From an uncultured Polaribacter sp. (GTDB lineage Bacteria; Bacteroidota; Bacteroidia; Flavobacteriales; Flavobacteriaceae): a DNA stretch of 64,000 nt. Under the pieces are notes generated by a model, which was given only the letters and a program-made list of their open reading frames with translations, did not search any database and was not told where the DNA came from. The first letter of the stretch is position 1; every line of letters starts with the position of its first letter. Location of the stretch: positions 80,690-144,689 of the forward strand of contig NZ_CANMUE010000008.1 of NCBI RefSeq assembly GCF_947500975.1, written 5' to 3'. Shown here piece after piece: positions 14,516-46,131 of this stretch. The position numbers were made by a program, and so were the translations under genes.

Positions 14516-14531
14516 AATTTATACATAATAT

Positions 14532-14562
14532 AAAAAAACCTCACTATTTGTGAGGTTTTTTT
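14532..14562 (+). terminator. Rho-independent terminator of lpdA
   Basis: A-tract, stem CCTCAC/GTGAGG with loop TATTT, then a seven-T tract. It lies inside the 5' extension that the ORF track gives to the next gene, which argues against that extension. Confidence 0.9.
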
Positions 14563-14594
14563 GTTCTCAAAACTTTCGAGTATTTTTACACCAT

Positions 14595-30527: not shown

Positions 30528-30593
30528 ATAAATAAGAGAAAAAAGAAGCTTATCAATTTTCTTTTATCTCTTTTCTAACTCTTTTTAGAAAAA

Positions 30594-30998
30594 ATGAACA
30601 AAGAAAATATCATCAAAGAACTTAATTTTAAGGCCATCAGAAGTTCTGGTGCTGGAGGTCAGCATGTAAATAAAACATCTTCAAAAATTGAGCTAACTTT
30701 TGATGTAGAAAACTCAAATTCCTTGTCTAATAATGAAAAAGATATTTTAAAAGTAAAACTCGCATCAAAATTAACCAATGAAAATGTGTTACTTATCTTC
30801 TGTGAAGAAACACGCTCTCAACATAGAAATAAAGATTTAGTTATTAAACGTTTTTTAAATTTGTTGACAACAAGTTTAATTCGCCCTAAAATAAGACGTA
30901 AAACAAAACCAAGTAAAGCTTCTATCAGAAGAAAAACTGAAAGCAAAAAAAGAACTTCCGTAAAAAAAGCATTAAGAAAAAAACCAGATATAAATTAA
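30594..30998 (+). CDS. arfB: Alternative ribosome-rescue factor ArfB (GGQ peptidyl-tRNA hydrolase)
   Basis: Frees ribosomes stalled on mRNA lacking a stop codon by hydrolysing peptidyl-tRNA. The 134-aa protein has RSSGAGGQHVNKTSSKIEL (GGQ motif) near residue 20 and the basic, lysine/arginine-rich C-terminal tail (RRKTKPSKASIRRKTESKK) that enters the empty mRNA channel. Both identify ArfB/YaeJ rather than RF1/RF2. Only 67 bp after the NadR-like kinase. Confidence 0.95.
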   Translation: MNKENIIKELNFKAIRSSGAGGQHVNKTSSKIELTFDVENSNSLSNNEKDILKVKLASKLTNENVLLIFCEETRSQHRNKDLVIKRFLNLLTTSLIRPKIRRKTKPSKASIRRKTESKKRTSVKKALRKKPDIN

Positions 30999-31005
30999 AG
31001 TAAAA

Positions 31006-31404
31006 TTAGCTATTTTTCATTTTCTCTAAATACTCACCCATTTTTTGATGCACAATATTTATAGCTTTTAAAGGCCTAATCATTACTTTTATTTCTTTTA
31101 ATTGCCCTTCTTCATTAAACTTAATCATATCAATTCCGTTAACTGAAACATCGCTAATTTCAGTTTCAAATTCTAACAAAGCATTTTCTTCGTCGCAAAC
31201 TTCTCTTATATATTTAAAATAACCGTTTGCTATAATTTTAGCTGCAGCTGTTAAATACATACTTACCATAAATTTACCTTTAATGGGTGTAAATACAACC
31301 GGAGAGTATAAAACAGCCTCATCTGCAATTAAATTTTTTAATCCATCAATATTTCTTGTTTCTAAAAATTGATGCCAGGTTTCTAATCCTTTTAATTTAT
31401 CCAT
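31006..31404 (-). CDS. NTF2-like (SnoaL-type) protein
   Basis: 132 aa with a single cone-shaped alpha+beta NTF2-like fold by pattern: WHQFLETRNIDGLKNLIADEAVLYSPV near the start, then alternating strands ending IKVMIRPLKAINIV. Such proteins can be isomerases, hydrolases or binding proteins; nothing here fixes a function. Convergent with arfB, 7 bp apart; divergent from the riboswitch-controlled receptor. A -7 element 18 bp before the start suggests its own promoter. Confidence 0.8.
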   Translation of the reverse strand: MDKLKGLETWHQFLETRNIDGLKNLIADEAVLYSPVVFTPIKGKFMVSMYLTAAAKIIANGYFKYIREVCDEENALLEFETEISDVSVNGIDMIKFNEEGQLKEIKVMIRPLKAINIVHQKMGEYLEKMKNS

Positions 31405-31421
31405 CTTAAAAATGCTTTTCT

Positions 31422-31429
31422 CAAAGCTA
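31422..31429 (-). promoter_or_regulatory. Candidate -7 element for the NTF2-like gene
   Basis: Minus-strand TAGCTTTG matches TAnnTTTG; predicted start near 31415, an 11-nt leader. Confidence 0.5.
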
Positions 31430-31448
31430 CAAAAAAAACCATTTATAA

Positions 31449-31479
31449 TTTGTTATTTAAAATTTACGTCTTAGTTTTG
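31449..31479 (+). promoter_or_regulatory. Consensus Bacteroidetes promoter of the TPP-regulated transcript
   Basis: TTTG at 31449-31452, a 19-nt spacer, then TAGTTTTG at 31472-31479, both perfect and at the canonical distance. Predicted start near 31486, just before the riboswitch. Confidence 0.8.
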
Positions 31480-31492
31480 CGCCGTTCTCATA

Positions 31493-31592
31493 AAGGGGTG
31501 CTAAAACTGGATATTATTTCTTAGGAAACAAGTTCAGCAAAAGCTGAGATCATACCCAATGAACCTAGAACAGGTAATGCTGTTTAGGGAAA
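31493..31592 (+). ncRNA. TPP (THI-box) riboswitch
   Basis: Conserved blocks occur in order: GGGGTGCT (31495), CTGAGATCATACCC (31544), GAACCT (31561), AGGTAATGCTGTTTAGGGAA (31572). These are the THI-box consensus; the variable P3 arm lies between the first two. Binding of thiamine pyrophosphate should reduce expression of the downstream TonB-dependent receptor. A 75-bp palindromic repeat lies between the aptamer and the gene, so the usual expression platform is not evident. Confidence 0.95.
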
Positions 31593-31601
31593 TATCGTTA
31601 A

Positions 31602-31676
31602 GTCATTGCGAAGAATTTATTCTGAAGCAATCTTTATTCTGAAGAGATTACCAAGTCGTAACCTCCTCGTAATGAC
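31602..31676. repeat. Dispersed palindromic repeat, copy A
   Basis: Outer arms GTCATTGCGAAG and CTCCTCGTAATGAC, inner arms GAAGCAATCT and AGATTACC. Copies B (58025) and C (59246) share the same arms. It lies in the leader between the TPP aptamer and the receptor gene. Resembles the short palindromic repeats spread through flavobacterial genomes (from memory). Confidence 0.75.
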
Positions 31677-31747
31677 TAAAAATTTTAATTATTCAATATT
31701 AATCACAAGAATAATTACCTCTTTTTATTCGTTTTAAATTTTTTAAA

Positions 31748-34126
31748 ATGAAAAAAAATATCTTTTTTTTATTCTTGTTTACAAGTATACTTGTAAACGC
31801 CCAAACATTTACACTAAAAGGAAAAGTAGTAAATGAAAACAACGAACCTTTACCAGGAGCAACTATTTTGGTAAAAGAAAGTAAAAAAGGAACTTCAACC
31901 GATTTTGATGGTCAGTTCTCAGTAAATCTTCCAAAAGGAAAGTACACAATTCAAGTTTCTTTTATTGGCTACAAGTCAGTTTCTAAGGAAGTTTCTTTGA
32001 CTAAAAATGATGAAATTGAGTTTTCATTATTGCCAGATTCTACAGTTTTAGAAGAGGTTTTGGTTTCTGCAGTTCGTGTAAAAGCGAATTCGCCAGTAAC
32101 ACATTCTAACTTATCAAAAAAGGAAATTGCAAAACGTAATTTAGGACAAGACATTCCTATTTTGCTTAACTATTTACCTTCTGTAACTACATCTTCTGAT
32201 GCTGGAGCAGGTATTGGTTACACGTATATTCGTGTTCGTGGTTCTGATGGAAGTCGTGTAAACGTTACAGTAAACGGAATTCCGTACAACGATGCAGAAA
32301 GTCAAGGAACTTTTTGGGTAAATATGGGTGATTTTGCTTCTTCTACAGAAAGCTTACAATTACAACGTGGTGTTGGTACATCTACCAACGGTTCTGGTGC
32401 TTTTGGTGCGAGTTTAAACATTTTAACGGATGCTATTTCTGAAGAAGCTAGTGGAGAAATTTCAAACTCTTTTGGTTCTTATGGAACAAGAAAACATACA
32501 GTAAAATTTACAACAGGAAAAATAAATGACAATTTTGAGTTTGCTGGTCGTTTGTCTAATGTGTATTCTGATGGTTACATAGACAGAGCTTTTACAGATT
32601 TAAAATCGTATTTCTTACAAGCTTCTTATGTAGATGAAAACACCTTAGTAAAAGCATTGGCTTTTGGAGGTAAAGAATATACTTATCAAGCTTGGTATGG
32701 CTTAACTGCAGAGGAATTAGCAGAGGATAGAAAACAGAATCCTTATACCTATGATAATGAAACTGACAACTACCAACAAGATCATTATCAGTTGCATTGG
32801 AATGAGAAATTAAACAAAAATTGGTCTACAAACTTAGGTTTAAATTACACAAGAGGTAAAGGATATTTTGAGCAATTTAAAGAAGAAGAATCTGCTGAAG
32901 ATTTTAATAACTTAATTACAGAAGATAGTGATGTTGTTGTTAGACGTTGGTTAGACAACCATTTTTATGTAGCCAATTTTAACGCTACATACAAAAACAA
33001 TAATATAGAAGTTATTGGAGGAATGTCTTACAGCAACTATACTAATGATCATTTTGGAGAAATAATTTGGGGAAGTGATTTATCTGAGGGAACTAGTATT
33101 AGAGATCAATATTATTTTAGTGATGCTAAAAAAACAGATTATAGTTCATTTATAAAAACTACTTATAAAATATCAAATCAATTAACTGCTTTTGTTGATT
33201 TACAAGGAAGGTTTGTAACTTATAAAACAAAAGGATTGACATCTGATAGAGATGAAATAGATGTAAATACTAATTTCAATTTCTTTAATCCTAAATTAGG
33301 ATTAACATACACACTTAACAACTCAAATAGTTTTTATGCATCTTATGCAAAAGCAAACAGAGAACCTAATAGAAATGATTTTGAAGTAGGAACTACACAA
33401 CACGAAAGTTTAGATGATTATGAGTTAGGTTGGCGTTTAAAAAACGAAAACATTAAATTAAGTACCAATGTTTACTATATGGATTATAGAAATCAGTTAG
33501 TATTAACTGGTGCTTTAAATGATGTTGGTTCTCCTATTAGAGCTACAAGCGGAAAAAGTTACCGTTTAGGTTTAGAAGTTGATGCAGATATTCGTGTAAA
33601 TGATCAATTTTCTATTAGACCAAATGTAGCCATAAGTTCTAATAAGAACGTAGATTTTAACGCGACCATAAATGGTGATTTAGTTAATTTAGGAAATACG
33701 CCTATTTCTAATTCTCCTGATGTAATTGCAGGTAATGCTTTTGTTTTTCAGCCTTTAAAAAACTTACAATTTTCTCTTTTATCTAAATATGTTGGCGAAC
33801 AATATATGGGTAATTTAGGTGGTGCAGTTGTGAATGAACCATCAATTCTTTATAAAGAAATATCTACAGATAACGAAAAACTAAAAAGTTATTTTACAAG
33901 TGATTTTAATGCAGTTTATGAAATAGAAACAAATAAAATATTTAAATCGGTTGTATTTACTGCTTTAATAAATAACATCTTTAACAAAAAATATGTAGAC
34001 AGGGGTTATTATTACACCTATGATGACACTTGGACAACTGCTGGTGTTACAACAACTGTTGATGGAGCTGGTTATTATCCGCAAGCAACAAGAAACTTCT
34101 TATTAGGAGTTACATTAAAATTTTAA
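31748..34126 (+). CDS. TonB-dependent receptor, probable thiamine transporter
   Basis: Outer-membrane active transporter of 792 aa. Signal peptide (to NAQ, about 19), carboxypeptidase-regulatory-like domain (GKVVNENNEPLPGATILVKE), plug domain (YIRVRGSDGSRVNVTVNGIPYN), then a 22-strand barrel ending with aromatic-terminated NFLLGVTLKF. The substrate is inferred from the TPP riboswitch directly upstream: Bacteroidetes use such receptors for thiamine. No cytoplasmic-membrane partner follows; the nearest candidate is the PnuC-family gene 1.8 kb upstream. Ends at a clear terminator. Confidence 0.93.
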   Translation: MKKNIFFLFLFTSILVNAQTFTLKGKVVNENNEPLPGATILVKESKKGTSTDFDGQFSVNLPKGKYTIQVSFIGYKSVSKEVSLTKNDEIEFSLLPDSTVLEEVLVSAVRVKANSPVTHSNLSKKEIAKRNLGQDIPILLNYLPSVTTSSDAGAGIGYTYIRVRGSDGSRVNVTVNGIPYNDAESQGTFWVNMGDFASSTESLQLQRGVGTSTNGSGAFGASLNILTDAISEEASGEISNSFGSYGTRKHTVKFTTGKINDNFEFAGRLSNVYSDGYIDRAFTDLKSYFLQASYVDENTLVKALAFGGKEYTYQAWYGLTAEELAEDRKQNPYTYDNETDNYQQDHYQLHWNEKLNKNWSTNLGLNYTRGKGYFEQFKEEESAEDFNNLITEDSDVVVRRWLDNHFYVANFNATYKNNNIEVIGGMSYSNYTNDHFGEIIWGSDLSEGTSIRDQYYFSDAKKTDYSSFIKTTYKISNQLTAFVDLQGRFVTYKTKGLTSDRDEIDVNTNFNFFNPKLGLTYTLNNSNSFYASYAKANREPNRNDFEVGTTQHESLDDYELGWRLKNENIKLSTNVYYMDYRNQLVLTGALNDVGSPIRATSGKSYRLGLEVDADIRVNDQFSIRPNVAISSNKNVDFNATINGDLVNLGNTPISNSPDVIAGNAFVFQPLKNLQFSLLSKYVGEQYMGNLGGAVVNEPSILYKEISTDNEKLKSYFTSDFNAVYEIETNKIFKSVVFTALINNIFNKKYVDRGYYYTYDDTWTTAGVTTTVDGAGYYPQATRNFLLGVTLKF

Positions 34127-34137
34127 TTACACTTTTT

Positions 34138-34171
34138 AAAAACCTCTTATTATTAAAAATAAGAGGTTTTT
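34138..34171 (+). terminator. Terminator of the TPP-regulated receptor
   Basis: 13-bp perfect stem AAAAACCTCTTAT/ATAAGAGGTTTTT with an 8-nt loop and a T-run, 11 bp after the stop. Confidence 0.9.
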
Positions 34172-34237
34172 TCTTACTTGACTTTCTGTTTTAAAAAAGA
34201 TAACTTAGCTAACTTCTGATATATGTCATTAAAAAAG

Positions 34238-34258
34238 ACGTTATATCACTAATAACGT
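34238..34258. repeat. Inverted repeat in front of the unknown three-gene cluster
   Basis: ACGTTAT/ATAACGT with a 7-nt loop, 20 bp before the first ATG. It could be an operator, or a relic of the island junction motifs seen further downstream (a loosely similar CTAAC...ATATATGT string lies at 34209). Confidence 0.4.
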
Positions 34259-34278
34259 GGCAGTAATTAAAAAACAGA

Positions 34279-35046
34279 ATGTTAAAAGTAAACTACAACA
34301 ACAAAGAATATAAGTTTCCGCAAATGAATCCTATGCAATGGAATTCTTATGTATATGGAACTATTAATTTAGATAATAATTGGCGTGAATTAGATTATAA
34401 AAACGGTGGACATACCTTAAACATAGGTGCTATTTCTTATTTTGAAGTTCCTAAACAGTTATTTAATGAATTGTATAAAAGTGAGTTCTTTTTTTCAGAA
34501 CAAATAATCAATGAAATTGAAGATGGAGAATCTTTTGAAAAACTTCCAATAATATATTTTAATTTAGATATAAATTTTACCAAAATATTTGATTTTAACA
34601 CTTATGAAAGTGTTTTGATTGGAAATATAAAAAGTAAGTTTCCTACTTTTAAAGAACTTGAAAATTTAGTTTTAGATAAAGAAATTATTGAAGATTCTTT
34701 ATTACGTTTAAGTGATTCTTTTAATTACGAACCTACACTTACGGCAATACGTTTTGGAAAAATAAAAAACAATAGTATAAACTTAATCTGTATTGCTGAA
34801 TTTGAAACTCGCAATAAAACCAAAGGAGTTATTGAAATTAATGTTTGGTTACCTATTAACTTCTATTTTGAAGCAGGTGTTTACTCAAACAGTTTTCCTA
34901 ACTTATCAATAAAAGAAAGATTAATAGAAGTTAGAGATTGCTTTGCTACAGTATATAACATATCTGAATATGATTTAACCGAAAAAATAGTTGATCAAAA
35001 AAATAAACGAGTAAAAATTCAATTTCAAAATAAAAAATGGAATTAG
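34279..35046 (+). CDS. Unknown protein, first of a three-gene accessory operon
   Basis: 255 aa, no signal peptide or membrane segment, acidic to neutral, rich in aromatic residues. It opens with a beta-rich stretch (WNSYVYGTINLDNNWRELDYKNGG) and later has ICIAEFETRNKTKGVIEINVWLPINFYFEAG. I do not recognise a domain. The second gene starts 10 bp before its stop, so they are cotranslated. Cytoplasmic proteins of this kind often act as immunity or accessory proteins in polymorphic toxin loci, but no toxin is present, so this is only a suggestion. Confidence 0.7.
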   Translation: MLKVNYNNKEYKFPQMNPMQWNSYVYGTINLDNNWRELDYKNGGHTLNIGAISYFEVPKQLFNELYKSEFFFSEQIINEIEDGESFEKLPIIYFNLDINFTKIFDFNTYESVLIGNIKSKFPTFKELENLVLDKEIIEDSLLRLSDSFNYEPTLTAIRFGKIKNNSINLICIAEFETRNKTKGVIEINVWLPINFYFEAGVYSNSFPNLSIKERLIEVRDCFATVYNISEYDLTEKIVDQKNKRVKIQFQNKKWN

Positions 35047-35660
35047 TACTTGCAATAGAACAACTTTATCAAACATTTTCTAAATTAACAAAACCAACTA
35101 AAATTGTAAATTATGGATGTGTTAGTTGCATTTCTAAGGATGATGAAAAATACTTTTTACAAACACCACTTAAAAAATTGAATGATCACATTTTTGGCGG
35201 CATTATGGAGTCTGGCAATGTTATAGAAATGGGTAACGAATGTTACAAATACTTTATTCCAAGAATTTTAGAATTGATAACAATAGAAAACTATGATTTT
35301 AGTTTTTCATTTGTGGAATACATTTACCGTGATTTTGCAAAATTCGACTATAAAAACACCTTTAATGAAAAAGAAAGAAGAGCTGTTGATAATTTTTTTT
35401 ATTCATATTTAGAACAAGAATTGGCAAAACCAAAAGTTGAAAGAGATGAATCTGAAATATTTAATATTGCCGAAACAGGGTTTAATGCAATTCCTCTTTT
35501 AGAAAAAATTCAACAAAGAAAAGACTGGGGAGAAATAAAAAAAGAACTCAATTATCATCTTTATTTACAAGAAAATAAATGGGTGAAATCTAAAGCAGAA
35601 TTTAAAATTTGGAGCAAAAAAGGCACAAGAAAAAGTATAATTAATTATCTTTCAAATTAA
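35037..35660 (+). CDS. Unknown protein, second of the three-gene accessory operon
   Basis: 207 aa, helical, cytoplasmic. It contains a CxxC pair (YGCVSCISKDDE) followed by KYFIPRILELI and a C-terminal EIKKELNYHLYLQENKWV region. The pattern C-x2-C then 'fixed-length acidic linker, YFxPRILEL' resembles uncharacterised immunity-like proteins found next to SMI1/KNR4 genes, but I cannot place it in a named family. It overlaps gene one by 10 bp and ends 8 bp before gene three. Confidence 0.7.
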   Translation: MELVLAIEQLYQTFSKLTKPTKIVNYGCVSCISKDDEKYFLQTPLKKLNDHIFGGIMESGNVIEMGNECYKYFIPRILELITIENYDFSFSFVEYIYRDFAKFDYKNTFNEKERRAVDNFFYSYLEQELAKPKVERDESEIFNIAETGFNAIPLLEKIQQRKDWGEIKKELNYHLYLQENKWVKSKAEFKIWSKKGTRKSIINYLSN

Positions 35661-35668
35661 AAATTGAA

Positions 35669-36802
35669 ATGAAAAAACCGATCTCACTTTATGCTCCGGA
35701 ATATTATAACGAAAAAATTATAACTAAAAATCGCCTAATACTAAAAAAAACAAAAGCATTACTTGCTGAAGACAATAACAAGTCATTATTTATTGCAAGT
35801 GTTGAAAACACTAAAGAATACAAATGTAATATCCCAGAAATTACTGAAGAATATAGAAATATTGCCACTAGATCATTCCATAAAGACCGAGAAAAAAACT
35901 GGGAATTACAAACTAAAATTAATGGTTGTAAAATCTATACTAGCAATTGGAATGATAAAGATTATCATTTTAGAATTTATTGGATTGTTATTTCTGAAGA
36001 CCATTTAATACAACTTTTCGGGCTATTTGAACCAAAATTTTCAGGGTTTTATAAACAACATTTTATGTTGAAAGGGCTAGATACAGAAATAGATACAAGT
36101 TTTGATTTTACATCTGAAACAAATCCAAATAATTTATTTGATTGCTTTCTTGTAGAAGTAGATATTAACGAGTTGCAAGAACGAATAGATGAGGCAAAAC
36201 AAAAAGAAATTAAAGCCCAGTTTTTAAAAGAAAATTTAAAACTGTCTAACAAAAACTTTTACACCATTTTAGCTACAGAACTTAAAGAAAAAGAAGAAGC
36301 GATTATAGATAGTTTTATGTGTAAAGATTGGAATATGTATTACGACTTACACAATCCAGAGAACTTTTCTAATCCAGACAGTACGATAGAATGGGAAGAC
36401 AATTCAGATGTTTTTGAATACTACAAAAAACCACATACTGATAACTCAAAAGTAACTATTGTGTGTAACGAAACAATTTGTGATTTACATGCATTGAAAA
36501 AACTTATTGATAATATAGAAATCGCAGAACAAAAAATACTTTCTTTTTTTGAGCATTATACTTTTGGAAATGGGGGAGCTTACGCGGATGCAATTCATTA
36601 TAAATACGCTAAAATAGAAATTGAACGATTACATAATACTACTTATACCAATAATGAATTTTTAAAACGAAATTTATGCTTAAGTGATATTATATTAACT
36701 GAAAACTCTAATGAATTAAAACTATATTTTGAGTGCAGTTGGGATACTGAACATGGAATTGACATTATCTTAAATGATAAATTTGAATGCAAGACGGAAT
36801 AA
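35669..36802 (+). CDS. Unknown protein, third of the accessory operon (possible DUF6985-like C-terminus)
   Basis: 377 aa, cytoplasmic. The N-terminal half has mixed strands; the middle has a helical coiled segment (ELQERIDEAKQKEIKAQFLKENL); the C-terminus (LYFECSWDTEHGIDIILNDKFE) looks like the domain, named DUF6985 if my memory is right, in which a W-D-x-E-H-G motif recurs. Function unknown. It ends the three-gene tandem; 147 bp of gene-free DNA follow before the convergent LRR gene. Confidence 0.7.
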   Translation: MKKPISLYAPEYYNEKIITKNRLILKKTKALLAEDNNKSLFIASVENTKEYKCNIPEITEEYRNIATRSFHKDREKNWELQTKINGCKIYTSNWNDKDYHFRIYWIVISEDHLIQLFGLFEPKFSGFYKQHFMLKGLDTEIDTSFDFTSETNPNNLFDCFLVEVDINELQERIDEAKQKEIKAQFLKENLKLSNKNFYTILATELKEKEEAIIDSFMCKDWNMYYDLHNPENFSNPDSTIEWEDNSDVFEYYKKPHTDNSKVTIVCNETICDLHALKKLIDNIEIAEQKILSFFEHYTFGNGGAYADAIHYKYAKIEIERLHNTTYTNNEFLKRNLCLSDIILTENSNELKLYFECSWDTEHGIDIILNDKFECKTE

Positions 36803-36926
36803 TAACTAGTGTAATGGACTAGTATAAGAAGAATAACGGATTTTTTGTACTAATTTTTGGATAAAGAGAGACCTACTTAATATTTACTTAGTTTGGTTTT
36901 AGCTATTGAACCTCTATTATTATTTT

Positions 36927-36941
36927 TATACATTGTTAGGC
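36927..36941 (+). repeat. Island junction motif (TATACATTGTTAGGC)
   Basis: Lies 8 bp beyond the LRR gene stop. It contains GTTAGGC, which fits the attC core GTTRRRY, and parallels the motif TATACACGGTGTTGTAGG at 38122 that follows the next gene of the island. Confidence 0.45.
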
Positions 36942-36949
36942 ATTATTTT

Positions 36950-37999
36950 TTAATCTACTAATATTTTAGTTTCAGATAATTCCTCAACTAGTTTTTCTTT
37001 GGTCTTCTGCTTTAAATTATTGGTTGTCAACCTCAATTTTTTCAACCATTTCATCTTGTAAATTGAATCAGGTAAATCTTGTAATAAATTATTATCTAAG
37101 TCTATTTCTTTTAAATTATTACAGTTAAAAATCAGTTCAGGTATGTGCCTAACACTCTGACAAGACCACAGATGTAATACTTGCAAACTCTCAAGCAAAT
37201 GTAATTCGTCCATCAAGTTTGTTGGGTCAAATTTATTTGTCCAATTTGAGTTGATTTTTAATACTTTTAATTTTTTTAATTTCCCGATTCCTTTTGGTAT
37301 CTCTTTAAGGTTATTAATTCCTAAATTTAGTTCTGTAAGTTTTAATAATTCAAAAAGTTCTTTTGGAATTTTTATCAACCCATTACCTTCTAAATTTAAC
37401 TTTTTTAGGCTAGTAAGTTTTGCAATAGAATTGGATATTTTTGCTTTTGAAGCACTTAGTTTAAGGTCTGTCAGCTTTTTGTTTTCTTTTAATATATTGA
37501 CCATTTGTTCAAAATCAAATTTAGTAGCACCAACCAATATTTCTAATTTTGACAATTCAGTCAGTTGACTTAGTGACTTAGGAAGTTTTGTAAGAGGAAC
37601 TGCAAACAAACTTAGTGATTTTAAGTTTTTCATTTTTCCTATAGTTTCAGGAATTGTATTAAAGCTTCCAGTTATTGTCAGTTTTTCTATGTTTTCCAAT
37701 GAGAAAATTATTTCTAGCTCTTTTTCGTTTTTACAAAAAACTCCTAGTTCTTTTAGGCTAGGGTAAGAACTTAAGTTGTTTGGAAAACTCACCCTTTCAC
37801 ACCCATAAAAATTAAGTATTTTCAGTTTGGGTAACTGTGAAACAAATTCAGGTATAATCTCGATATCTGTATACCCAATATCTAATTTTTCTAAATTCTT
37901 ACATTTTTCTATTTCTGATGGAATTTCTTCCCAACCTACTAAGTCAATGCGTTTAACTGAAAGTGGGGCTTTGTTAATCTTTTTTAAGAGTTTTTCCAT
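36950..37999 (-). CDS. Leucine-rich-repeat protein
   Basis: 349 aa built almost wholly of about 14 LRR units of the form LxxLxLxxNxLxxIP (for example LTELNLGINNLKEIPKGIGKLKKLKVLKI), similar to the plant-type or Shoc2-like repeats common in Bacteroidetes. No signal peptide, so it stays in the cytoplasm and probably mediates protein binding. There is no catalytic domain. Flanked by inverted GTTAG/CTAAC-containing motifs (36935 and 38018), like the neighbouring secreted gene, which suggests acquisition as a unit. Confidence 0.88.
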   Translation of the reverse strand: MEKLLKKINKAPLSVKRIDLVGWEEIPSEIEKCKNLEKLDIGYTDIEIIPEFVSQLPKLKILNFYGCERVSFPNNLSSYPSLKELGVFCKNEKELEIIFSLENIEKLTITGSFNTIPETIGKMKNLKSLSLFAVPLTKLPKSLSQLTELSKLEILVGATKFDFEQMVNILKENKKLTDLKLSASKAKISNSIAKLTSLKKLNLEGNGLIKIPKELFELLKLTELNLGINNLKEIPKGIGKLKKLKVLKINSNWTNKFDPTNLMDELHLLESLQVLHLWSCQSVRHIPELIFNCNNLKEIDLDNNLLQDLPDSIYKMKWLKKLRLTTNNLKQKTKEKLVEELSETKILVD

Positions 38000-38017
38000 T
38001 TCGTTTTTAAAATAATA

Positions 38018-38143
38018 ACTAACGTTTTATGTGTATGATTTGTTGCGTTGGTTTAGCAAATAAATACTTAATTGAAAATCCGCGAGGATTTTCGTAAGTT
38101 GGCTAAAAGAAAGCAATAAAATATACACGGTGTTGTAGGTAGT
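38018..38143. repeat. 126-bp imperfect palindrome between two island genes (attC-like)
   Basis: Outer arm ACTAACGTTTTATGTGTATG pairs loosely with ATACACGGTGTTGTAGGTAGT; GTGTATGATTTGTTGC aligns at 13 of 16 positions with the complement of 38113-38128; TTTAGC/GCTAAA pair next; the centre is a perfect hairpin GAAAATCC-GCGA-GGATTTTC. It fills the gap between two minus-strand genes. Size and multi-stem structure recall integron attC sites, but canonical GTTRRRY/RYYYAAC boxes are only approximate. Confidence 0.6.
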
Positions 38144-38145
38144 TT

Positions 38146-38685
38146 TTATTCAATAATCTTTGTTTTTTCCTTTTTCAAATCAGATGTGAATTTAAATTCA
38201 AAATTTTGCTCTTTTTCTATGTTTTTCAGATCAAAGCTAAAAACGGTAAATTCATATTTTGAATTATTTTCTTTTTTTAATTCCGTGTAATCTTGCAATT
38301 TCCTTTTTCTCAAGTTGGCATATAATTCAGACACTTTTTTATTTGATTGTGAAATTTCTACTGCTTTTTTTATTCGGATAATTTCAGCGAGTAAATCTGA
38401 TTCAAACTTTTTCTTTGAATTTGAATATCCATTCGAATCTAAATAATTCCAAATTTTATTATTGTGAATTTCAACACTATCGATTAAACTTTCAATGAAT
38501 GAATCTCCTGCAATTCCTTTTATTTTAAATGGCCAATCTTTTTCAATTATTTTTTCCGCATTTTGATTTACAAAGTTTCCAATACTGAAAAGAGTCCAAA
38601 TTTCGAGCGTGTCATTTTTTTTCTCAATTTGTGCTAAAGTCAAACTAGAAATCAGTAAAATTAATATGTTCGTTAGTATTTTCAT
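38146..38685 (-). CDS. Putative secreted protein, unknown function
   Basis: 179 aa with a signal peptide (KILTNILILLISSLTLAQ) and a highly charged, helical mature part (Lys/Glu-rich, SKKKFESDLLAEIIRIKKAVE). No recognised domain. The perfect 11-bp motif TGTTGTAGGTA occurs inverted on both sides, about four and five bases from the stop and the start; a second, 17-bp motif (15/17 identical) flanks these at 38018 and 38799. The gene therefore looks like a compact cassette. No obvious ribosome-binding site. Confidence 0.65.
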   Translation of the reverse strand: MKILTNILILLISSLTLAQIEKKNDTLEIWTLFSIGNFVNQNAEKIIEKDWPFKIKGIAGDSFIESLIDSVEIHNNKIWNYLDSNGYSNSKKKFESDLLAEIIRIKKAVEISQSNKKVSELYANLRKRKLQDYTELKKENNSKYEFTVFSFDLKNIEKEQNFEFKFTSDLKKEKTKIIE

Positions 38686-38690
38686 TTAAT

Positions 38691-38701
38691 TACCTACAAC
38701 A
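38691..38701 (-). repeat. Inner inverted motif TGTTGTAGGTA (right copy)
   Basis: Perfect 11-base inverted partner of 38131-38141, five bases upstream of the 38146-38685 start codon. Confidence 0.6.
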
Positions 38702-38798
38702 ATATATTAAAACAATAAAGTTAAGTTACAACCTAAAATTAGTTCATATTATAAAGTCTACCAAACTTGAAAGCAAGTATATTCTAAAATCTTACTAA

Positions 38799-38815
38799 AC
38801 ACATCAACCGTTAGT
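38799..38815 (-). repeat. Outer inverted motif ACTAACGGTTGATGTGT (right copy)
   Basis: Matches ACTAACGTTTTATGTGT at 38018-38034 at 15 of 17 bases, in inverted orientation, and lies 15 bp from the truB stop. Marks the probable right edge of the accessory island. Confidence 0.55.
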
Positions 38816-38830
38816 GTTTTTCAAAGTTTA

Positions 38831-39520
38831 TTATTCAACCAAGTTTTCAATAAAACTTTCAATAGAGCTTGCATTATCAACAGAAAAATCACCAATTTTA
38901 GTTCTTCTTAAAGCTGATAAATGAGCTCCAGAGTTTAATGCTTTTCCATAATCGAATGCTATTGAGCGAATATAAGTTCCTTTACTACAAACTACTCTAA
39001 AATCAACTTGAGGTAGATTAATATTTGTAATTTCAAATTCTGAAATGGTTACTTGTCTTGAAGCAATTTCTGTTGTTTCACCTTTTCTAGCTAACTCATA
39101 CAAGCGTTTTCCATCTTTTTTAATAGCTGAAAAAATGGGTGGTTTTTGCTGAATATCACCTAAAAACTGTTTTGTAGTTTCTTTTAAAAGTGATTCTGTA
39201 ATATGTTCAGTAGAAAATGATTGATCAATCTCTGTTTCTAAATCATAACTAGGCGTGGTTGAACCGACGGTAAAAGTACCCGTATATTCTTTTATCTGAC
39301 CTTGATAAGTATGAATATTTTTAGTTTCCTTACCTGTACAAATAATTAATAAACCTGTTGCTAAAGGATCTAAAGTACCAGCATGACCAACTTTAATTTT
39401 CTTAATTTTAAAACGCTGTTTAATATGCCAACGTAATTTATTTACAACTTGAAAAGAGGTCCATGTAAGTGGTTTATCAATTAATAAAACCTTACCGTTC
39501 TTAAAATTTTCTTCAGTCAT
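38831..39520 (-). CDS. truB: tRNA pseudouridine(55) synthase
   Basis: Makes the universal pseudouridine 55 of the tRNA T-loop. Catalytic motif VGHAGTLDPLATGLLI with the nucleophilic Asp; also KPLTWTSFQVV, QKPPIFSAIKKDG(K)RLYELAR and the SKGTYIRSIAFD motif. 229 aa, slightly shorter than the proteobacterial enzyme because the C-terminal PUA-like part is absent, as is usual in Bacteroidetes. Last gene of the minus-strand run ftsX-DUF3098-uppP-truB (10 bp after uppP). Confidence 0.97.
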   Translation of the reverse strand: MTEENFKNGKVLLIDKPLTWTSFQVVNKLRWHIKQRFKIKKIKVGHAGTLDPLATGLLIICTGKETKNIHTYQGQIKEYTGTFTVGSTTPSYDLETEIDQSFSTEHITESLLKETTKQFLGDIQQKPPIFSAIKKDGKRLYELARKGETTEIASRQVTISEFEITNINLPQVDFRVVCSKGTYIRSIAFDYGKALNSGAHLSALRRTKIGDFSVDNASSIESFIENLVE

Positions 39521-39530
39521 TTTTATCGAC

Positions 39531-40325
39531 TTATTTTAAAAACGAATATGCTACTGCAATAGCACCAACTATGGCACAGTAAATTGAAAAATAATATAAT
39601 TTGCTTTTCTTAACTAAAGCAATCATCCATTTACAAGCTAATAAACCAGCTAAAAATGCGGCTATAAAACCAGCGGAAACAGATATCATTTCTGATGATT
39701 GAAAATTTAAATCTCCACTTAAAACATCTTTTCCAATTTTTCCAAAAATTAAAGGAACAACCATTAAAAAAGAAAAACGCGCAGCTTTTACCCTATCTAC
39801 ACCTAATAAAACGGAAGTAGAAATTGTTGCTCCAGATCTAGAAATACCTGGTAACATTGCTACTGCTTGAGAAACACCAATTATTAAAGCATCCCAAAAA
39901 GTTACTTTTTTTTCTGTGCTTTTTGCTTTATCTGCAAATAATAATAAGATTGCTGTTAAAAATAGCATCATACCAACTATAAAAATCTCTCCACTAAAAA
40001 AGGATTCTAATTGTTCTTCAAAAAGAAGTCCAATTACTACAGCAGGAATCATTGAAATAATAATTTTTAATGAGAATTTTAATTCATCATTCCATTTAAA
40101 TTGAAATAATCCTTTAAATATTTCCAATACTTCTTTTCTAAAAATTACTAAAGTACTTAACGCGGTTGCAAAGTGTAAAACTACTGTAAATGTTAGGCTC
40201 TCCTCAGGCACAGATGTATCACCTAAAACAACTTTTGCTAATTCTAAATGCCCGCTTGAAGAAACAGGTAAAAACTCAGTTAATCCCTGAATAAGACCTA
40301 ACACGATTGCTTCTAAAATATCCAT
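39531..40325 (-). CDS. uppP: Undecaprenyl-diphosphatase UppP (BacA)
   Basis: Inner-membrane phosphatase that recycles undecaprenyl diphosphate to the monophosphate for peptidoglycan and O-antigen synthesis. Active-site motifs GLTEFLPVSSSGHL and PGISRSGATIS are intact; eight hydrophobic segments and 264 aa length fit the family. Two bases before it lies the DUF3098 gene, and truB follows 10 bp after. This order is conserved in Bacteroidetes. Confidence 0.97.
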   Translation of the reverse strand: MDILEAIVLGLIQGLTEFLPVSSSGHLELAKVVLGDTSVPEESLTFTVVLHFATALSTLVIFRKEVLEIFKGLFQFKWNDELKFSLKIIISMIPAVVIGLLFEEQLESFFSGEIFIVGMMLFLTAILLLFADKAKSTEKKVTFWDALIIGVSQAVAMLPGISRSGATISTSVLLGVDRVKAARFSFLMVVPLIFGKIGKDVLSGDLNFQSSEMISVSAGFIAAFLAGLLACKWMIALVKKSKLYYFSIYCAIVGAIAVAYSFLK

Positions 40326-40326
40326 A

Positions 40327-40569
40327 TTATTTTTTAGGATTTACCAAAATAGCATAAATTTCTATTGCTAAACCAATAATTACTAATGTTGGTGCTAATC
40401 TAATACGTTGCCAATTATAAATTTCTTCATTAAAAACTTCAGGATTATCACTACCTCCACCAGACATAAAAATAAAGCCCAAAGTAATAAAAACAATACC
40501 AATTGCCATGAACATGTAATTTCTTTTTCCGAATAAAAATTCAGAATTTTCTATGTTTTTATCTTTCAT
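40327..40569 (-). CDS. DUF3098 small membrane protein
   Basis: 80 aa with two transmembrane segments (YMFMAIGIVFITLGFIFMSGGG and LAPTLVIIGLAIEIYAILV). The FMSGGGSDNPEVFNEEIY loop is the hallmark of DUF3098, found almost only in Bacteroidetes between ftsX and uppP. Its role is unknown; position suggests cell-envelope or division function. It starts 3 bp after ftsX. Confidence 0.92.
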   Translation of the reverse strand: MKDKNIENSEFLFGKRNYMFMAIGIVFITLGFIFMSGGGSDNPEVFNEEIYNWQRIRLAPTLVIIGLAIEIYAILVNPKK

Positions 40570-40572
40570 ATT

Positions 40573-41451
40573 CTAATAATAAAGTTCTTCTGTTTGTAAA
40601 TTTAAAAAACGTTGAGTAGCAAAAAAAGTACTTAACATAGTTATTATAAATGCTGCTAAAACAACACCTAAAGCTAAATAAATTAAAGATATATAGTCTT
40701 TTAAAATATTTAAACTTGGCACATATTTATCAATATAAAAAATTACAACTGCCAAGCCAATTAATGCTAAAAATGCACCGAGCATTCCTAGTTTTATACT
40801 TCTAAAAATAAAAGGTTTTCTAATAAAACCTTTAGTAGCACCAACCATTTGCATTGTTTTAATGTTAAACCTTTTACTATAAATTGATAACCTTATTGAA
40901 CTATTAATTAAAATAATAGCTATTAAACTAAAGAACCCACTTAAAACTAAAAGCCAAAAACTAATTCTTTTAATATTTTTTGTTAATAATGCTATCAAAG
41001 GTTTATCATAAGAAACATCTACTATAAATGCATTTTTTAAAAATCTAGTTTCCAATTCTTGCATTTTATCTAAAGTAACATAATCCGCTTTTAGGTAAAT
41101 ATCAATTCCATTTTTTAAAGGATTTTCTCCTAAAAAATTTAAAAAATCTTCACCAATTTCTTTACTATATTTTTTTGCGGCTTGTGTTTTACTAATATAA
41201 ATTGCCTTTTTGGTAAAATCTTCTGTTAAAAGAGATTCTCTAAAAGTTTTAATTTGTTTTTGAGTTACCTCATCTTTAATAAATAAAGAAATGGCAACTT
41301 TTTCTTTAACATGATTGGCAACTTTTGTAGATTTTAACAAAACCAACCCCAAAACACCAACCATAAAAAGCACTAATGCAATACTTATTACTACTGAAAA
41401 GTAAGAAGATTGTAGGCGTCTTTTTTGATAAGAATCAAATTTTGATGACAT
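40573..41451 (-). CDS. ftsX: Cell division protein FtsX
   Basis: Permease-like half of the FtsEX complex, which activates peptidoglycan hydrolases at the septum. 292 aa: cytoplasmic N-terminus, one helix (VISIALVLFMVGVLGLVLL), an extracytoplasmic domain with the conserved KEKVAISLFIKDEVTQ start, and three C-terminal helices with TMQMVGATKGFIRKPF before the last pair. FtsE is not beside it. First gene of the conserved run to truB. Confidence 0.94.
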   Translation of the reverse strand: MSSKFDSYQKRRLQSSYFSVVISIALVLFMVGVLGLVLLKSTKVANHVKEKVAISLFIKDEVTQKQIKTFRESLLTEDFTKKAIYISKTQAAKKYSKEIGEDFLNFLGENPLKNGIDIYLKADYVTLDKMQELETRFLKNAFIVDVSYDKPLIALLTKNIKRISFWLLVLSGFFSLIAIILINSSIRLSIYSKRFNIKTMQMVGATKGFIRKPFIFRSIKLGMLGAFLALIGLAVVIFYIDKYVPSLNILKDYISLIYLALGVVLAAFIITMLSTFFATQRFLNLQTEELYY

Positions 41452-41528
41452 ATTTAGTTTTGATTTTTAAAACAGCTGCAAGATAATAATTAGTACTCAT
41501 TTAACAGTAAGTGTTAGCAGTATTTTAA

Positions 41529-41930
41529 CTATTCTATTTCTTGGCACAACTCAATTAAAACTCCATTTGTAGCTTTTGGATGTAAAAAGGCAACCAACTT
41601 ATTGTCTGCTCCTTTTTTTGGGGTTTCATTTAAGACAATAAAACCTTCTTTTTTTAATCTTGTAATTTCTGATTGAATATCAGTTACAGCAAATGCTATA
41701 TGATGAATTCCTTCTCCTTTTTTATCTATAAATTTTGCAATAGGGCTATTAGAATCTGTTGCCTGTAGCAATTCTATTTTATTAGGACCACTTTTAAAAA
41801 ATGAAGTTGTTACACCTTCTGAAGCAACCTCTTCTGTTTTATAAGGTAGTTTACCAAAAAGTGAAGTAAATAGTTTGTTAGAATCCTCGAGGTTTTTAAC
41901 AGCAATTCCTATATGTTCTATTTTATTCAT
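41529..41930 (-). CDS. mce: Methylmalonyl-CoA epimerase
   Basis: Interconverts (R)- and (S)-methylmalonyl-CoA in propionate/succinyl-CoA metabolism. VOC fold of 133 aa with metal ligands in IEHIGIAV (His), KIELLQ (Glu region), GIHHIAFAV (His) and the C-terminal IELCQ (Glu). It starts 8 bp after the DUF5689 gene on the same strand, so it is cotranscribed with a surface uptake locus, although no functional link is evident. Confidence 0.95.
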   Translation of the reverse strand: MNKIEHIGIAVKNLEDSNKLFTSLFGKLPYKTEEVASEGVTTSFFKSGPNKIELLQATDSNSPIAKFIDKKGEGIHHIAFAVTDIQSEITRLKKEGFIVLNETPKKGADNKLVAFLHPKATNGVLIELCQEIE

Positions 41931-41938
41931 TATAAAAA

Positions 41939-43360
41939 TTATCTAGCATTAATTTTAATATTATCTATTTCGTAAGTTCCATCAAAACTTACATTTCCAG
42001 AACCTGTATATTTAAAAGCGATAAAAGCCGTACCTGTATAACTTGATAAATCTATATAAGTTGAATGTACCCAGTTTTTAAAATTTTCTCCATCAGAAAC
42101 AATTTTTGCAGGTAAAACATCCCAAATCGCAGAAGTAATATTCGCATTTACACCGTCCCAGTTTGTAGAAATTAAAACTTCTAAATTACTTCCATTTGCA
42201 AAACTGTTTGATGATTCAAATGATAAAAATTCTTCTGAAGTTGTATCTAAATCTATTCCTTTTGTTATTAGCCAAGTTATTGTACTTGAATTTCCTGAAT
42301 TGCTAGAACCAACTCTGGCTGCAATACTTTGCGAGTAAGTATCAGAATATGACCTCCAAGATTGTGTACCTTCTTCTCTATAGTTACCCCAATCTTCAAT
42401 AGATATTTCGCCTGATGTTTCTTCAAAATCTTCTTCTAACAAAATTGTAGGAAAATCATTTTCTGACAATGTTGAACATCGTTCTCCAGTCATAAAAACA
42501 TCTTCTACAGAATTTAAAACTAATACTAAAAAATCGCCACCAAAATCATTTGAAACTACCGCATTAATATAACCTCCTCCGGTTGGTAATGTGTTATTAG
42601 CAAAACTTGCAAAAGAACTTGTTTCTAATAAAAGGTCTGCATATCCTAAAGTTTGACAGCTTTGTATTTTTCTATGAGTATCAAAATCTTCTGTTGGATC
42701 TACATAAGATTGTCCTTCTAAATTAGTTGGAAAAAGAACATTTTCTACTGTTATATAGGTTCCAATATCCGAAGCATTAACAGCCGCTAAAGAAACTGAT
42801 TTTGGGATAATTGTTTCGGTAGTATTAGATCGAAAAAAATGATTTTCTAATTGATTTAGAGAAACACTTTCTATTTCACTTACATCGGTAGGACTAATTT
42901 TTCCTCCTATAGCAGTAACGCCATCTCCAGAATTTGTTTCTCCAATATATAAATCTTTCAGAAGGATATAAACTTCTCTACCAAAATTATACTTGTTATA
43001 ATTGCTAGTTAAATTCAATACTACTTTAATACCGGCAGTTGGATCTTCAGGCGTATCTTGCATATAAAATTCTTTAAAAAAATTACCTTCTAAATCAGAA
43101 GAAACCACATAACCTTTAACAATAATGTTAGATGTAATTTTTAAAGGCTCGTTACCTGAAACATATAAAGATTTTAAATCATTTATAGTCTTTAACTCAA
43201 TTTGCCCGTTACTTACACTATCTAAAAGTGCATTTAATTTTGAATTTTCTTCGGTTCCTATTCCTTGAGGAACTATATAATTACCATCTTCTACACAAGA
43301 TGTAAAATAAATACTAGATACTAGAGCTAGTAATAAAATTAATAATAGATTCTTTTTCAT
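41939..43360 (-). CDS. DUF5689 surface lipoprotein with choice-of-anchor J-type C-terminus
   Basis: 473 aa. Signal peptide with lipobox YFTSC (Cys21), then a DUF5689 region with OB-fold-like features (ITSNIIVKGYVVSSDLEGNFFKEFYMQD, EVYILLKDLYIGE), and a C-terminal beta-sandwich (EDWGNYREEGTQSWRSYSDTY ... VSFDGTYEIDNIKI) typical of choice-of-anchor J modules. Probably an outer-membrane lipoprotein that works with the TonB receptor encoded 11 bp upstream. Cargo unknown; the divergent nuclease-like gene suggests nucleic acids. Confidence 0.85.
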   Translation of the reverse strand: MKKNLLLILLLALVSSIYFTSCVEDGNYIVPQGIGTEENSKLNALLDSVSNGQIELKTINDLKSLYVSGNEPLKITSNIIVKGYVVSSDLEGNFFKEFYMQDTPEDPTAGIKVVLNLTSNYNKYNFGREVYILLKDLYIGETNSGDGVTAIGGKISPTDVSEIESVSLNQLENHFFRSNTTETIIPKSVSLAAVNASDIGTYITVENVLFPTNLEGQSYVDPTEDFDTHRKIQSCQTLGYADLLLETSSFASFANNTLPTGGGYINAVVSNDFGGDFLVLVLNSVEDVFMTGERCSTLSENDFPTILLEEDFEETSGEISIEDWGNYREEGTQSWRSYSDTYSQSIAARVGSSNSGNSSTITWLITKGIDLDTTSEEFLSFESSNSFANGSNLEVLISTNWDGVNANITSAIWDVLPAKIVSDGENFKNWVHSTYIDLSSYTGTAFIAFKYTGSGNVSFDGTYEIDNIKINAR

Positions 43361-43371
43361 TTTCTTTTTTT

Positions 43372-46131
43372 TTAAAAACTTAAATTAATATTTAAAAAAT
43401 AGGTAGTTCCTCTACCATACCAATATTTATTACCAAATACTGGCTTATCTAAGGCTTTATCATCTCTTAATTGTCTATAATTAGCGTTTCTTCCTTGTTC
43501 AAATCCTCCAGATTTGTATTCCGTATTTAGTAAGTTATTTACAGTTGCAAATACACTAATAAATTTATCATTTATTTTCCAAGATTTTCCACCAACTAAA
43601 TTAACAACTTTGTAATCATCAAACTTTTCTTGTTCTAATAATTCTTCAGCTAATTCTATATCATAATCTGTAAAAACCAAACCATCATCATCTGTATAAA
43701 AATTACTAGATCTATTTAAAGGTGCAACATCTACAAAAGTATTGCTGAAAAAATTTACAGTTGCTCCTACCCACCAATAATTTGGATCTCTATACTCAAA
43801 ACCAATAGAATATGCATTTTGGGGTCCAGATGATAACTTGTAATTTTTAAGATTTGTTTGACCAAAATCTTTTGATCCGTTTACAAAACCAACAGAAACA
43901 GATTCTGAATCATCTTCTGATGTTAGATACAAATTTGGATTATTATCATAAATATATTTACCCATTGAAGCTGCTCCTTTTATCTTGATTGTTGAAGTAA
44001 CTTGGGCTTCTAAACCAAATTCTAAACCTAAATGTTTTTTATTTATACCTGTTAAAACTTCTTGAACAAATGCTGTATTATCACCTCCAATACCATCAGC
44101 AAAATAAAAAGCTATTTCTGTAGCATCTTTAATATACGTATAATAACCCGTTAATTTAGATGTAACTATTGGCCCTCGAAAAATATAACTAGCATCAGTA
44201 GAAAACGTGCTTTCGCTTTGTAAATTTAGAACTACATTATTATTTTCTCTTGAGTTCGAAAATGAATTTTTTATTGTTGGCGCATTTGTTAAAAAAGCAA
44301 CATTAGCATTTACTAAATGACGTCCATTAATTTTATAAGTTCCACCAGTTTTTACACCAAAATTTGTGAAATTTAGTTTTTTAGAATTCCCTAAAGAACT
44401 TGTTGGAAAACCTCCGTTTTGAAACAGCCCCTCTCTTTGATGCGAAGTTCTAGAGATATTTGCAGCAGCGTAAAAATCTATTTTATTATATGTAAATTGA
44501 GATTGAATAAATGCACTTAAAACATCTGAATTTAAATTATAATTGTATTTAAACTTATCTCCTTGCAAAACAACCCTATCTGGTGTCAGTAAGTTGTTTT
44601 GTTTCTCACTATCTGTTTCAGCAAAATTATCAATATCTAAATACCCTTTTCCCCCTAATAAATCTATAACTTCTGCAAAATTATTAGACCTTAAACGTTT
44701 GTATTCAACTTTAGCATTTAAAGTAATATTATTATTTATTTCTGAATTTAAAATGGAATTAAAAGTAAATTGTTTGTCGTCATTTCTATCTTCATACAAT
44801 ACATAAGCGCTATTTATATCTACATCAAAATTTGTAATATTTGCATCAAAAATTCTCTCCCAATCTAATTGTCCATTGCTTTGAAAATCTTCTAATGCTT
44901 CATAAGCACCTATTAAATCATTATTACTTTCATAAAAACTAGGTAAGTTTTGGTAATAAGTTGGACTTGGATTTGCGCCTCCATTAAAATCTAAACGACT
45001 ATTTCCTATTTTACCAAACTGATAAGAAACATTTGTTTGCAAATAATTTTTATCAGAAATTTTCCAATAATGATTTAACATTAAAATTGGTTCTTTAACT
45101 TCTTTTATTCTAGAATTGGTTTTTCTACTATTTATATAACCCCAATACTCATTATATTTTATGCCTTTTAAATCAAAAACTTCTTGTGTATTTGGTGATG
45201 ATTTACCTCTTCTATTTGGGGCAAAAATAGATGTAAAATTAATACTATGTTTTTCATCTATTTTTTTTTCTATAGATGCAAAAAAAGAATAAGCGTTGTA
45301 AATTGTAACATCATTAAAACCCTCTAAACCAGCTCTTCTACTTCCAGAAAAAGTCATTGCCCAACCATTTTCTAAAACACCAGACGAATAAGTTCCCATT
45401 ACCCTATGCTCATAACTTCTATTAGATGAAGAATACGAAACTTTTACACCTGGTTTTTGCTCTGATGCTCTAGTATTCATATTTGTAGAACCTAAAACTC
45501 CACCAAAAGTAAAGTTAGAAGGATCTAAACCATTACTTAACTCTTGATTTCTTAATACATCATTTAGCCCACCCCAATTACTCCATTGTGCCCTACCATC
45601 GTACAACTTATTCATTTCAATTCCGTTAATTAAAACCTTACCGTTACCAGAATCTAAGCCTTTAATACTAAAAAAAGAAGAACTAAATTCAAAAGCGGCT
45701 GTACGTAAATAAATATCTTTTGTTGCTTGTAACAAACCAGCAATATTGTCTGCTGTATTAGCATCATTATTTAATTCATCATCTGTAATTGTAATTAAAC
45801 TTAAATCCTGATCTTCAATAATATTTCTATATAAAAGTACAATACCTAAATCTATATTTGTATTACCAGAAAATTCTACAGGAAAATTTTGAGTCTCATA
45901 ACCCGTTAATTTTATCTCAACAATATATTTACCATTAATAATATTTATTAAGTTAAAAGCACCATTTAAACTTGTTACTTGGCTTTTTGATATATTTTTA
46001 ATACTAACCAAAACGTTTTGAAGAGGAGTTTCCGAATTACTATCCGAAACAATTCCTTTTACAGTATTTTGTGATGATAAAGTTGTTATTAAAAAAAATA
46101 GCATAAATATTGATAAAACAATTTTTCTCAT
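43372..46131 (-). CDS. TonB-dependent receptor, paired with the DUF5689 lipoprotein
   Basis: 919-aa outer-membrane transporter. Signal peptide (to LSSQ), carboxypeptidase-regulatory-like domain (GIVSDSNSETPLQNVLVSI), plug domain (FFSIKGLDSGNGKVLINGIEMN) and a long barrel ending TTYFLNINLSF. Unlike the thiamine receptor there is no riboswitch upstream; a -7 element precedes it. It is followed at 11 bp by the DUF5689 lipoprotein and diverges from an exported EEP-family protein, a grouping I read as an uptake locus for an unidentified polymer. Confidence 0.93.
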   Translation of the reverse strand: MRKIVLSIFMLFFLITTLSSQNTVKGIVSDSNSETPLQNVLVSIKNISKSQVTSLNGAFNLINIINGKYIVEIKLTGYETQNFPVEFSGNTNIDLGIVLLYRNIIEDQDLSLITITDDELNNDANTADNIAGLLQATKDIYLRTAAFEFSSSFFSIKGLDSGNGKVLINGIEMNKLYDGRAQWSNWGGLNDVLRNQELSNGLDPSNFTFGGVLGSTNMNTRASEQKPGVKVSYSSSNRSYEHRVMGTYSSGVLENGWAMTFSGSRRAGLEGFNDVTIYNAYSFFASIEKKIDEKHSINFTSIFAPNRRGKSSPNTQEVFDLKGIKYNEYWGYINSRKTNSRIKEVKEPILMLNHYWKISDKNYLQTNVSYQFGKIGNSRLDFNGGANPSPTYYQNLPSFYESNNDLIGAYEALEDFQSNGQLDWERIFDANITNFDVDINSAYVLYEDRNDDKQFTFNSILNSEINNNITLNAKVEYKRLRSNNFAEVIDLLGGKGYLDIDNFAETDSEKQNNLLTPDRVVLQGDKFKYNYNLNSDVLSAFIQSQFTYNKIDFYAAANISRTSHQREGLFQNGGFPTSSLGNSKKLNFTNFGVKTGGTYKINGRHLVNANVAFLTNAPTIKNSFSNSRENNNVVLNLQSESTFSTDASYIFRGPIVTSKLTGYYTYIKDATEIAFYFADGIGGDNTAFVQEVLTGINKKHLGLEFGLEAQVTSTIKIKGAASMGKYIYDNNPNLYLTSEDDSESVSVGFVNGSKDFGQTNLKNYKLSSGPQNAYSIGFEYRDPNYWWVGATVNFFSNTFVDVAPLNRSSNFYTDDDGLVFTDYDIELAEELLEQEKFDDYKVVNLVGGKSWKINDKFISVFATVNNLLNTEYKSGGFEQGRNANYRQLRDDKALDKPVFGNKYWYGRGTTYFLNINLSF

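Follow-up and report, generated by a model that had tools for sequence, protein, structure and literature searches.

Two genes beside truB in the genome of an uncultured Polaribacter sp. lie among short inverted motifs, and the question raised by this locus is what kind of unit the motifs delimit. A first-pass annotation of the window (the whole stretch of DNA analysed, 64,000 nucleotides) had proposed a compact, gene-sized cassette of a possibly undescribed class in flavobacteria. A gene-sized cassette is what we find, of a kind that is apparently unreported and is carried by most flavobacteria, a group thought to be almost devoid of integrons. It is highly likely that the window contains two solo cassettes of an integron-like system, the first clear and the second probable, and that a tyrosine recombinase, FlInt, heads the main array of this system. 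Judging from the sequence evidence of site, hairpin, core signature, orientation, attI-like site and the adjacency and kinship of FlInt, the system is, very probably, integron-like and its integrase non-canonical.

Probable solo cassettes beside truB

All coordinates in the first-pass annotation proved correct when rechecked in the window. The 11-mer TGTTGTAGGTA is present at 38131-38141 (+) and 38691-38701 (−), the sole exact copies in the window, and the 17-mer at 38018-38034 (+) and 38799-38815 (−); the coding sequence of the secreted protein (38146-38685, −) lies 4 and 5 bases inside the flanking 11-mers, and GTTAG/CTAAC is found near 36935 and 38018. The motif counts alone are barely above chance (the mismatch-tolerant expectation per window is 1.2 for the 11-mer and 0.8 for the 17-mer), a weakness which favours ordinary, vertically inherited genes with inverted motifs that arose by chance. 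The motifs are significant because of genome-wide structure: positions 38018-38141 are one hairpin element with many copies in the genome, including one on contig C24 that is 86% identical. In keeping with two checks proposed in the first-pass annotation, members of the motif family adjoin single, unrelated genes throughout the genome, and the island is missing beside truB in all 17 same-genus genomes (downstream of truB in 0/17), most relatives keeping the truB-uppP synteny. Relatives of the secreted gene are sporadic in the Flavobacteriaceae (8/301 genomes, the window's own included). Vertical inheritance is contradicted by the genome-wide copies and by the core statistics given below, and is extremely improbable. 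A clean empty site beside truB was not found in the six relatives examined, because the genes downstream of truB differ among them.

The motifs do not bracket a new cassette type; the site of recombination is a 124-bp hairpin that separates the two genes. The pairing of motifs had been partly misread: the 17-mer at 38018 and the 11-mer at 38131 are the two ends of a single attC-like site (38018-38141, +), which extends from AAC at 38021 to GTT at 38134 plus the flanking cores and scores 119 bits with R1, a covariance model built from aligned copies of the site. The plus strand is the 'bottom' strand, the island genes being on the minus strand, and folded as single-stranded DNA it gives a z of −4.3 versus shuffles. 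The inverted 11-mers do not hold as a boundary pair but represent the core and the inverse core of a single cassette. It starts with the core TGTTGTAGGTA (38691-38701, −), then has A at position 8 after GTT, and ends with the inverse core (38131-38141, +; gene strand TACCTACAACA); the inverted match between the two is 7/7, which is the rule for verified cassettes. The gene (38146-38685, −) encodes a 179-residue protein with an apparent signal peptide and no Pfam family above cut-off. Positions 38018-38701 are clearly one solo cassette, encoding this secreted protein.

The neighbouring gene (36950-37999, −), which encodes a 349-residue leucine-rich-repeat protein (LRR families in Pfam), is the probable gene of a second cassette, with a core match of only 5/7. 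The motif reported at 36935 terminates an attC-like site behind this gene that has decayed and is weakly recognisable (36813-36937, +; 12.1 bits, E of 0.011 over the 301 bases searched with the unfiltered model). Gene and decayed site together probably represent a second solo cassette, and both cassettes are beside truB, away from the main array. A CALIN is defined by at least two attC sites with no integrase nearby; the window has one 119-bit site and one decayed 12-bit site. No recombinase-like ORF was noted among the ORFs of window positions 30000-46000, and no Rfam family matched across the window. The absence of an integrase from view, part of the original proposal, is true of the window but not of the genome, which has a recombinase gene on another contig (C11:188-1303).

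The left flank of the first cassette (38702-38815), which includes the 17-mer at 38799, has no fold and a best score of 8.9 bits. Positions 38691-38815 were considered as a second, inverted site and rejected on fold and model (unfiltered search, best 8.9 bits); the outer 17-mers (38018 and 38799) do not form a functional pair. As no site is recognisable in 38702-38815, the flank is either a secondary target of insertion or what is left of an eroded site; the first is likely, the second possible. The attG sites are known secondary insertion places of integron cassettes (Loot 2024, as cited in PMC12444791), and the solo cassettes beside truB, outside attI and array, resemble attG insertion as presented in that citation. 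They differ in that the left junction of the window cassette is no more than a candidate for a site of this type and may be an eroded attC.

Two relatives of the secreted gene in other genera are bracketed by matching cores, GTGGGTA (locus L220) and GCCAGTA (locus L225), and each adjoins an R1 match (17.9 and 48.5 bits, respectively); these cores were read by eye from the flanks, because one GTT/AAC letter is changed in each. On the opposite strand beside the cassettes there are three consecutive genes with no Pfam match above cut-off (34279-36802, +), possibly a further horizontally acquired block.

Site copies and the cassette signature

Blastn found about 27 copies of 38018-38141 in the genome that the window comes from; they lie chiefly on small contigs, with a single orientation per contig. 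The alignment of 21 copies yielded a consensus hairpin of 22 pairs, 13 of which are compensated (both sides changed, pair kept). R1 detected 42 copies in the same genome at E ≤ 1e-3, sites in 16 of 17 other same-genus genomes and up to 116 sites in one same-genus chromosome; in closed genomes they form long one-orientation arrays (e.g. G016:C1:2182305-2277839 and G013:C1:2958057-3051723). On the gene strand AAC starts 414 of 421 sites and GTT ends 414. As in integrons, the hairpin has a predicted bottom-strand preference, the bottom strand being more stable in 99% of 150 sites (−17.9 versus −14.4 kcal/mol; −8.1 for composition-shuffled sequences).

The R boxes differ from the integron consensus RYYYAAC/GTTRRRY, as GTTRRRY is present in only 6% of sites. 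Unlike those of the chromosomal integrons they are hypervariable and reach a length of ~11 bases. Position 8 is A at the cassette start (99%) and C at the corresponding end (87%), an A.C mismatch that is fixed in the folded site. The boxes are mismatched in arrays (2.9/7) and would be matched in the excised circle (6.5/7); insertion could therefore be favoured over excision.

An integron cassette moves as a circle whose site is cut at GTT, and in an integron array the two flanks of one site stem from different cassettes. Because the circle is cut at GTT, the bases that follow GTT at the start of a cassette should match, inverted, those that precede AAC at its own end. Among neighbouring pairs of sites within 900 bp, 218/224 match at six or more of 7 core bases, compared with 4.4% of random pairs and 8.6% for the two flanks of one site. 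With pairs up to 1500 bp apart the count is 292/311 (5.6% in permutations); at this distance it is 154/167 without the repetitive genome G013, 115/134 for unique pairs, 25/32 in other genera and 8/10 in the window's own genome. The match spans positions 1-7, fails at 8, returns at 9-11 and then stops. Cassettes with matched core and inverse core are a feature of integrons, and on sequence grounds the match is the signature of integron cassettes recombining through a circle.

The cassettes are mostly single genes plus the ~124-bp attC-like site, co-oriented and in tandem like those of integrons. The top strand carries the ORF in 186 of 188 core-matched cassettes with an ORF of at least 80 residues, and these ORFs cover a median of 93% of the cassette. 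Immobile hairpins between genes (terminators or REP-like elements), placed behind genes by coincidence, would also sit close behind stop codons and occur in many copies per genome. Such elements leave unpredicted the core bases that match over hundreds of bases, the one-orientation arrays that begin at a recombinase and the attI-like junction described below, and we regard them as a highly improbable explanation.

The cargo of 100 cassette proteins includes AbiH, Abi_alpha, GmrSD, reverse transcriptases, methyltransferases and hydrolases, with mostly one member per family; integron cassettes usually carry such mixed, single-member cargo. No near-identical cassettes common to different species, which would have been a sign of recent transfer, were found among 306. 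Two very dense arrays were observed in G013 (C1:2945000-3059999 and 1796000-1855999; loci L068-L073 and L078-L080), with many sites 450-600 bp apart and the same cassettes repeated within the chromosome (1137 similar pairs).

FlInt and the attI-like site

FlInt, a Bacteroidia family of tyrosine recombinases of about 370-390 residues, heads arrays and is encoded in the direction of the array in G001 (twice), G009, G013 and G016. In the window's genome the FlInt gene is at the end of contig C11, so that the array is physically unjoined to it. A scan of named genomes yielded at least 569 relatives, of which 80 were kept; they are found in Polaribacter, Muricauda, Algibacter, Winogradskyella, Mesonia, Flavobacterium, Tenacibaculum, Formosa, Spirosoma, Membranihabitans and Cyclobacteriaceae, among others. 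Like the integron integrases, FlInt is a tyrosine recombinase with catalytic residues; it matches PF00589, and the catalytic pattern is present in 71/80.

Across the 80 loci, 107 of 108 R1 matches are downstream of FlInt and co-oriented with it. Among the 40 loci whose contig runs on for 2 kb or more past FlInt, 17 have no R1 match, which the tuning of R1 to a single subtype might explain. The contig breaks off within 2 kb after FlInt in 40/80 loci and within 2 kb before it in 2/80, the pattern expected if the gene is followed by a repeat array.

The core of the first cassette, predicted from its far end, sits shortly after the FlInt stop codon, often at exactly 103 bp. The context of this junction is conserved and ends in ATATAACCAGTT or TATAAACAAGTT; in the window's genome the attI-like site reads CATATAAATAAGTT|GTGTACC. 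An attI-like motif was found in 70/83 loci versus 1.1% of control windows, a figure that is partly fitted because the motif was relaxed after the misses had been viewed; the earlier, stricter motif gave 40/83 loci versus 0.4% of controls. The first-cassette junctions were found independently of the motif. Position 8 after GTT is A in 65/65 readable sites. The position, beside the integrase gene and holding the first cassette, is that of an integron attI, and the site would presumably function as one.

In G001 two near-identical FlInt genes (C1:2233827 and 2343712; loci L074 and L076) each have their own array, and several other recombinases are encoded between them. By eye, the gene beside FlInt in the window's genome (C11:1490-2473, locus L038) looks to be of PorP/SprF type, and that in G009 and G013 is polynucleotide-phosphorylase-like; the differing neighbours indicate that the platform has changed its location in the chromosome.

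On-demand gene capture has its standard model in the integrons. By analogy with them, the bottom strand of the attC-like site would fold into a hairpin, which FlInt would bind and cut next to GTT. The cassette would leave as a circle and re-enter at attI, and occasionally a circle may enter a secondary genomic place, such as that beside truB.

The attC-like sites are present in 255/301 Flavobacteriaceae genomes (179/203 genera) and FlInt in 207/301; the odds ratio for their association over the 301 genomes is 7.1 (p 6e-9, from counts made by hand and ignoring kinship). In the class, FlInt is present in 157/296 genomes. Another enzyme, either a canonical IntI from elsewhere or the host XerC/XerD, might mobilise the cassettes with FlInt as an unrelated neighbour. 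XerC/XerD also occur in genomes without arrays, which counts against this proposal. At the cut-off used, FlInt is missing from 62 of the 255 site-bearing genomes, which the proposal would explain, and it would also accommodate the attC of Polaribacter phage P12002L, a carrier of R1-like sites, that was recombined by IntI1 in E. coli (PMC9892861); this attC may differ from the sites matched by R1. Arrays in many genera, however, have FlInt at their head together with an attI-like site that is conserved, and no Flavobacteriaceae are among the 85 genomes with a TIGR02249 match at 1e-60. We consider mobilisation by another enzyme unlikely, and FlInt the probable recombinase.

Kinship with integron integrases and known systems

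FlInt scores 191-211 bits with the integron-integrase model TIGR02249 (cut-off 265; 4/4 tested fell under it). The IntI-specific insert is absent, the median distance from KDR to HxLRH being 58 residues, compared with 100 in IntI and 60-66 in Xer. Integron surveys take the IntI-specific domain as a criterion (PMC9668308; PMC2426708), and because the IntI insert and the GTTRRRY consensus are both wanting, the system is not an integron in the strict sense.

In the phylogenetic tree FlInt clusters with IntI to the exclusion of Xer (bootstrap 100, SH-aLRT 94), with FlInt as a clade of its own (90/94) alongside IntI (100/99). The tree was built after removal of sparsely occupied columns, which included the insert, and outgroup sampling was small; in it the FlInt clade is sister to IntI. 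The AlphaFold model of FlInt (m0e2e85140cf2; mean pLDDT 83.7, pTM 0.56) consists of a recombinase core with an additional beta/alpha domain at the N terminus; among solved folds, XerA and the integron integrase 2a3v come closest. Residues 1-90 are a conserved domain (strand-strand-helix-strand-strand-helix-strand) with a WS.T...W motif, for which there was no Pfam match above noise and for which a PDB fold search yielded mainly recombinase cores. This domain possibly replaces the IntI insert.

The arrays resemble sedentary chromosomal integrons, such as those of Vibrio, in having a tyrosine recombinase in front, an attI-like point of insertion, single-gene cassettes arranged head to tail, each with its core and inverse core matched, and GTT/AAC hairpin sites with a bottom strand predicted to be more stable. 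They differ in the integrase, since FlInt is without the insert and has the extra N-terminal domain of ~90 residues, and in layout, the FlInt gene running in the direction of the array with attI behind its stop codon. The archaeal integrons (PMC9668308) likewise have attI directly downstream of the integrase gene and co-oriented cassette arrays, but their IntI retain the IntI-specific domain. The XerA-type simple tyrosine recombinases (4a8e, 5hxy; NF040815) come closest to the FlInt core in both sequence and fold and have no insert; unlike them, FlInt groups with IntI in the tree, heads cassette arrays and falls just under the NF040815 cut-off.

No description of a FlInt/attC-like system was found in the full-text literature, a search that mostly excluded subscription papers, so that an earlier description elsewhere is possible. 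IntegronFinder 2.0 (2022) listed just one complete integron from Bacteroidetes, that of Salinibacter ruber; before then, only In0 had been reported (PMC9024848). Canonical IntI above the model cut-off was present in 84/297 Bacteroidota genomes (loci L179-L208), all but one outside the window's class, and is commoner in Bacteroidota than published surveys suggest. Integron catalogues rely on tools that require the IntI-specific domain, and the surveys consulted list next to no integrons from Bacteroidetes.

A broader proposal is that the FlInt arrays are a Bacteroidia-native sister lineage of integrons, near-universal in Flavobacteriaceae and biased towards insertion, which works without the IntI insert and whose sites are recognised by the N-terminal domain, the A.C mismatch or both; we hold this to be evenly poised between right and wrong. 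If functional, the arrays would be a gene-capture system of up to >100 cassettes per genome, overlooked in a group of marine bacteria that is among the most abundant. Folded single-strand sites would then be usable without the insert held essential for IntI, and the origin of integrons would be directly testable.

Site-bearing sequences also occur in viruses. Phage P12002L (locus L161, NC_028924) matches R1 at 38036-38089, 38880-38935, 39123-39244 and 14503-14624 of its genome. Blastn of the site against phage records gave no match, which reflects sensitivity, because R1 finds the sites in P12002L. The CALIN of this phage (PMC9892861) comes from the same host family, and its sites match R1; unlike the FlInt arrays, it has no integrase. 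The P12002L sites are of short (54-56 nt) and long versions and lie around methyltransferase genes. Two IMG/VR viral contigs (loci L217 and L218) also bear attC-like sites; in addition to capsid- and terminase-like genes, L218 carries a short tyrosine recombinase of its own and four R1 matches, all on the same strand.
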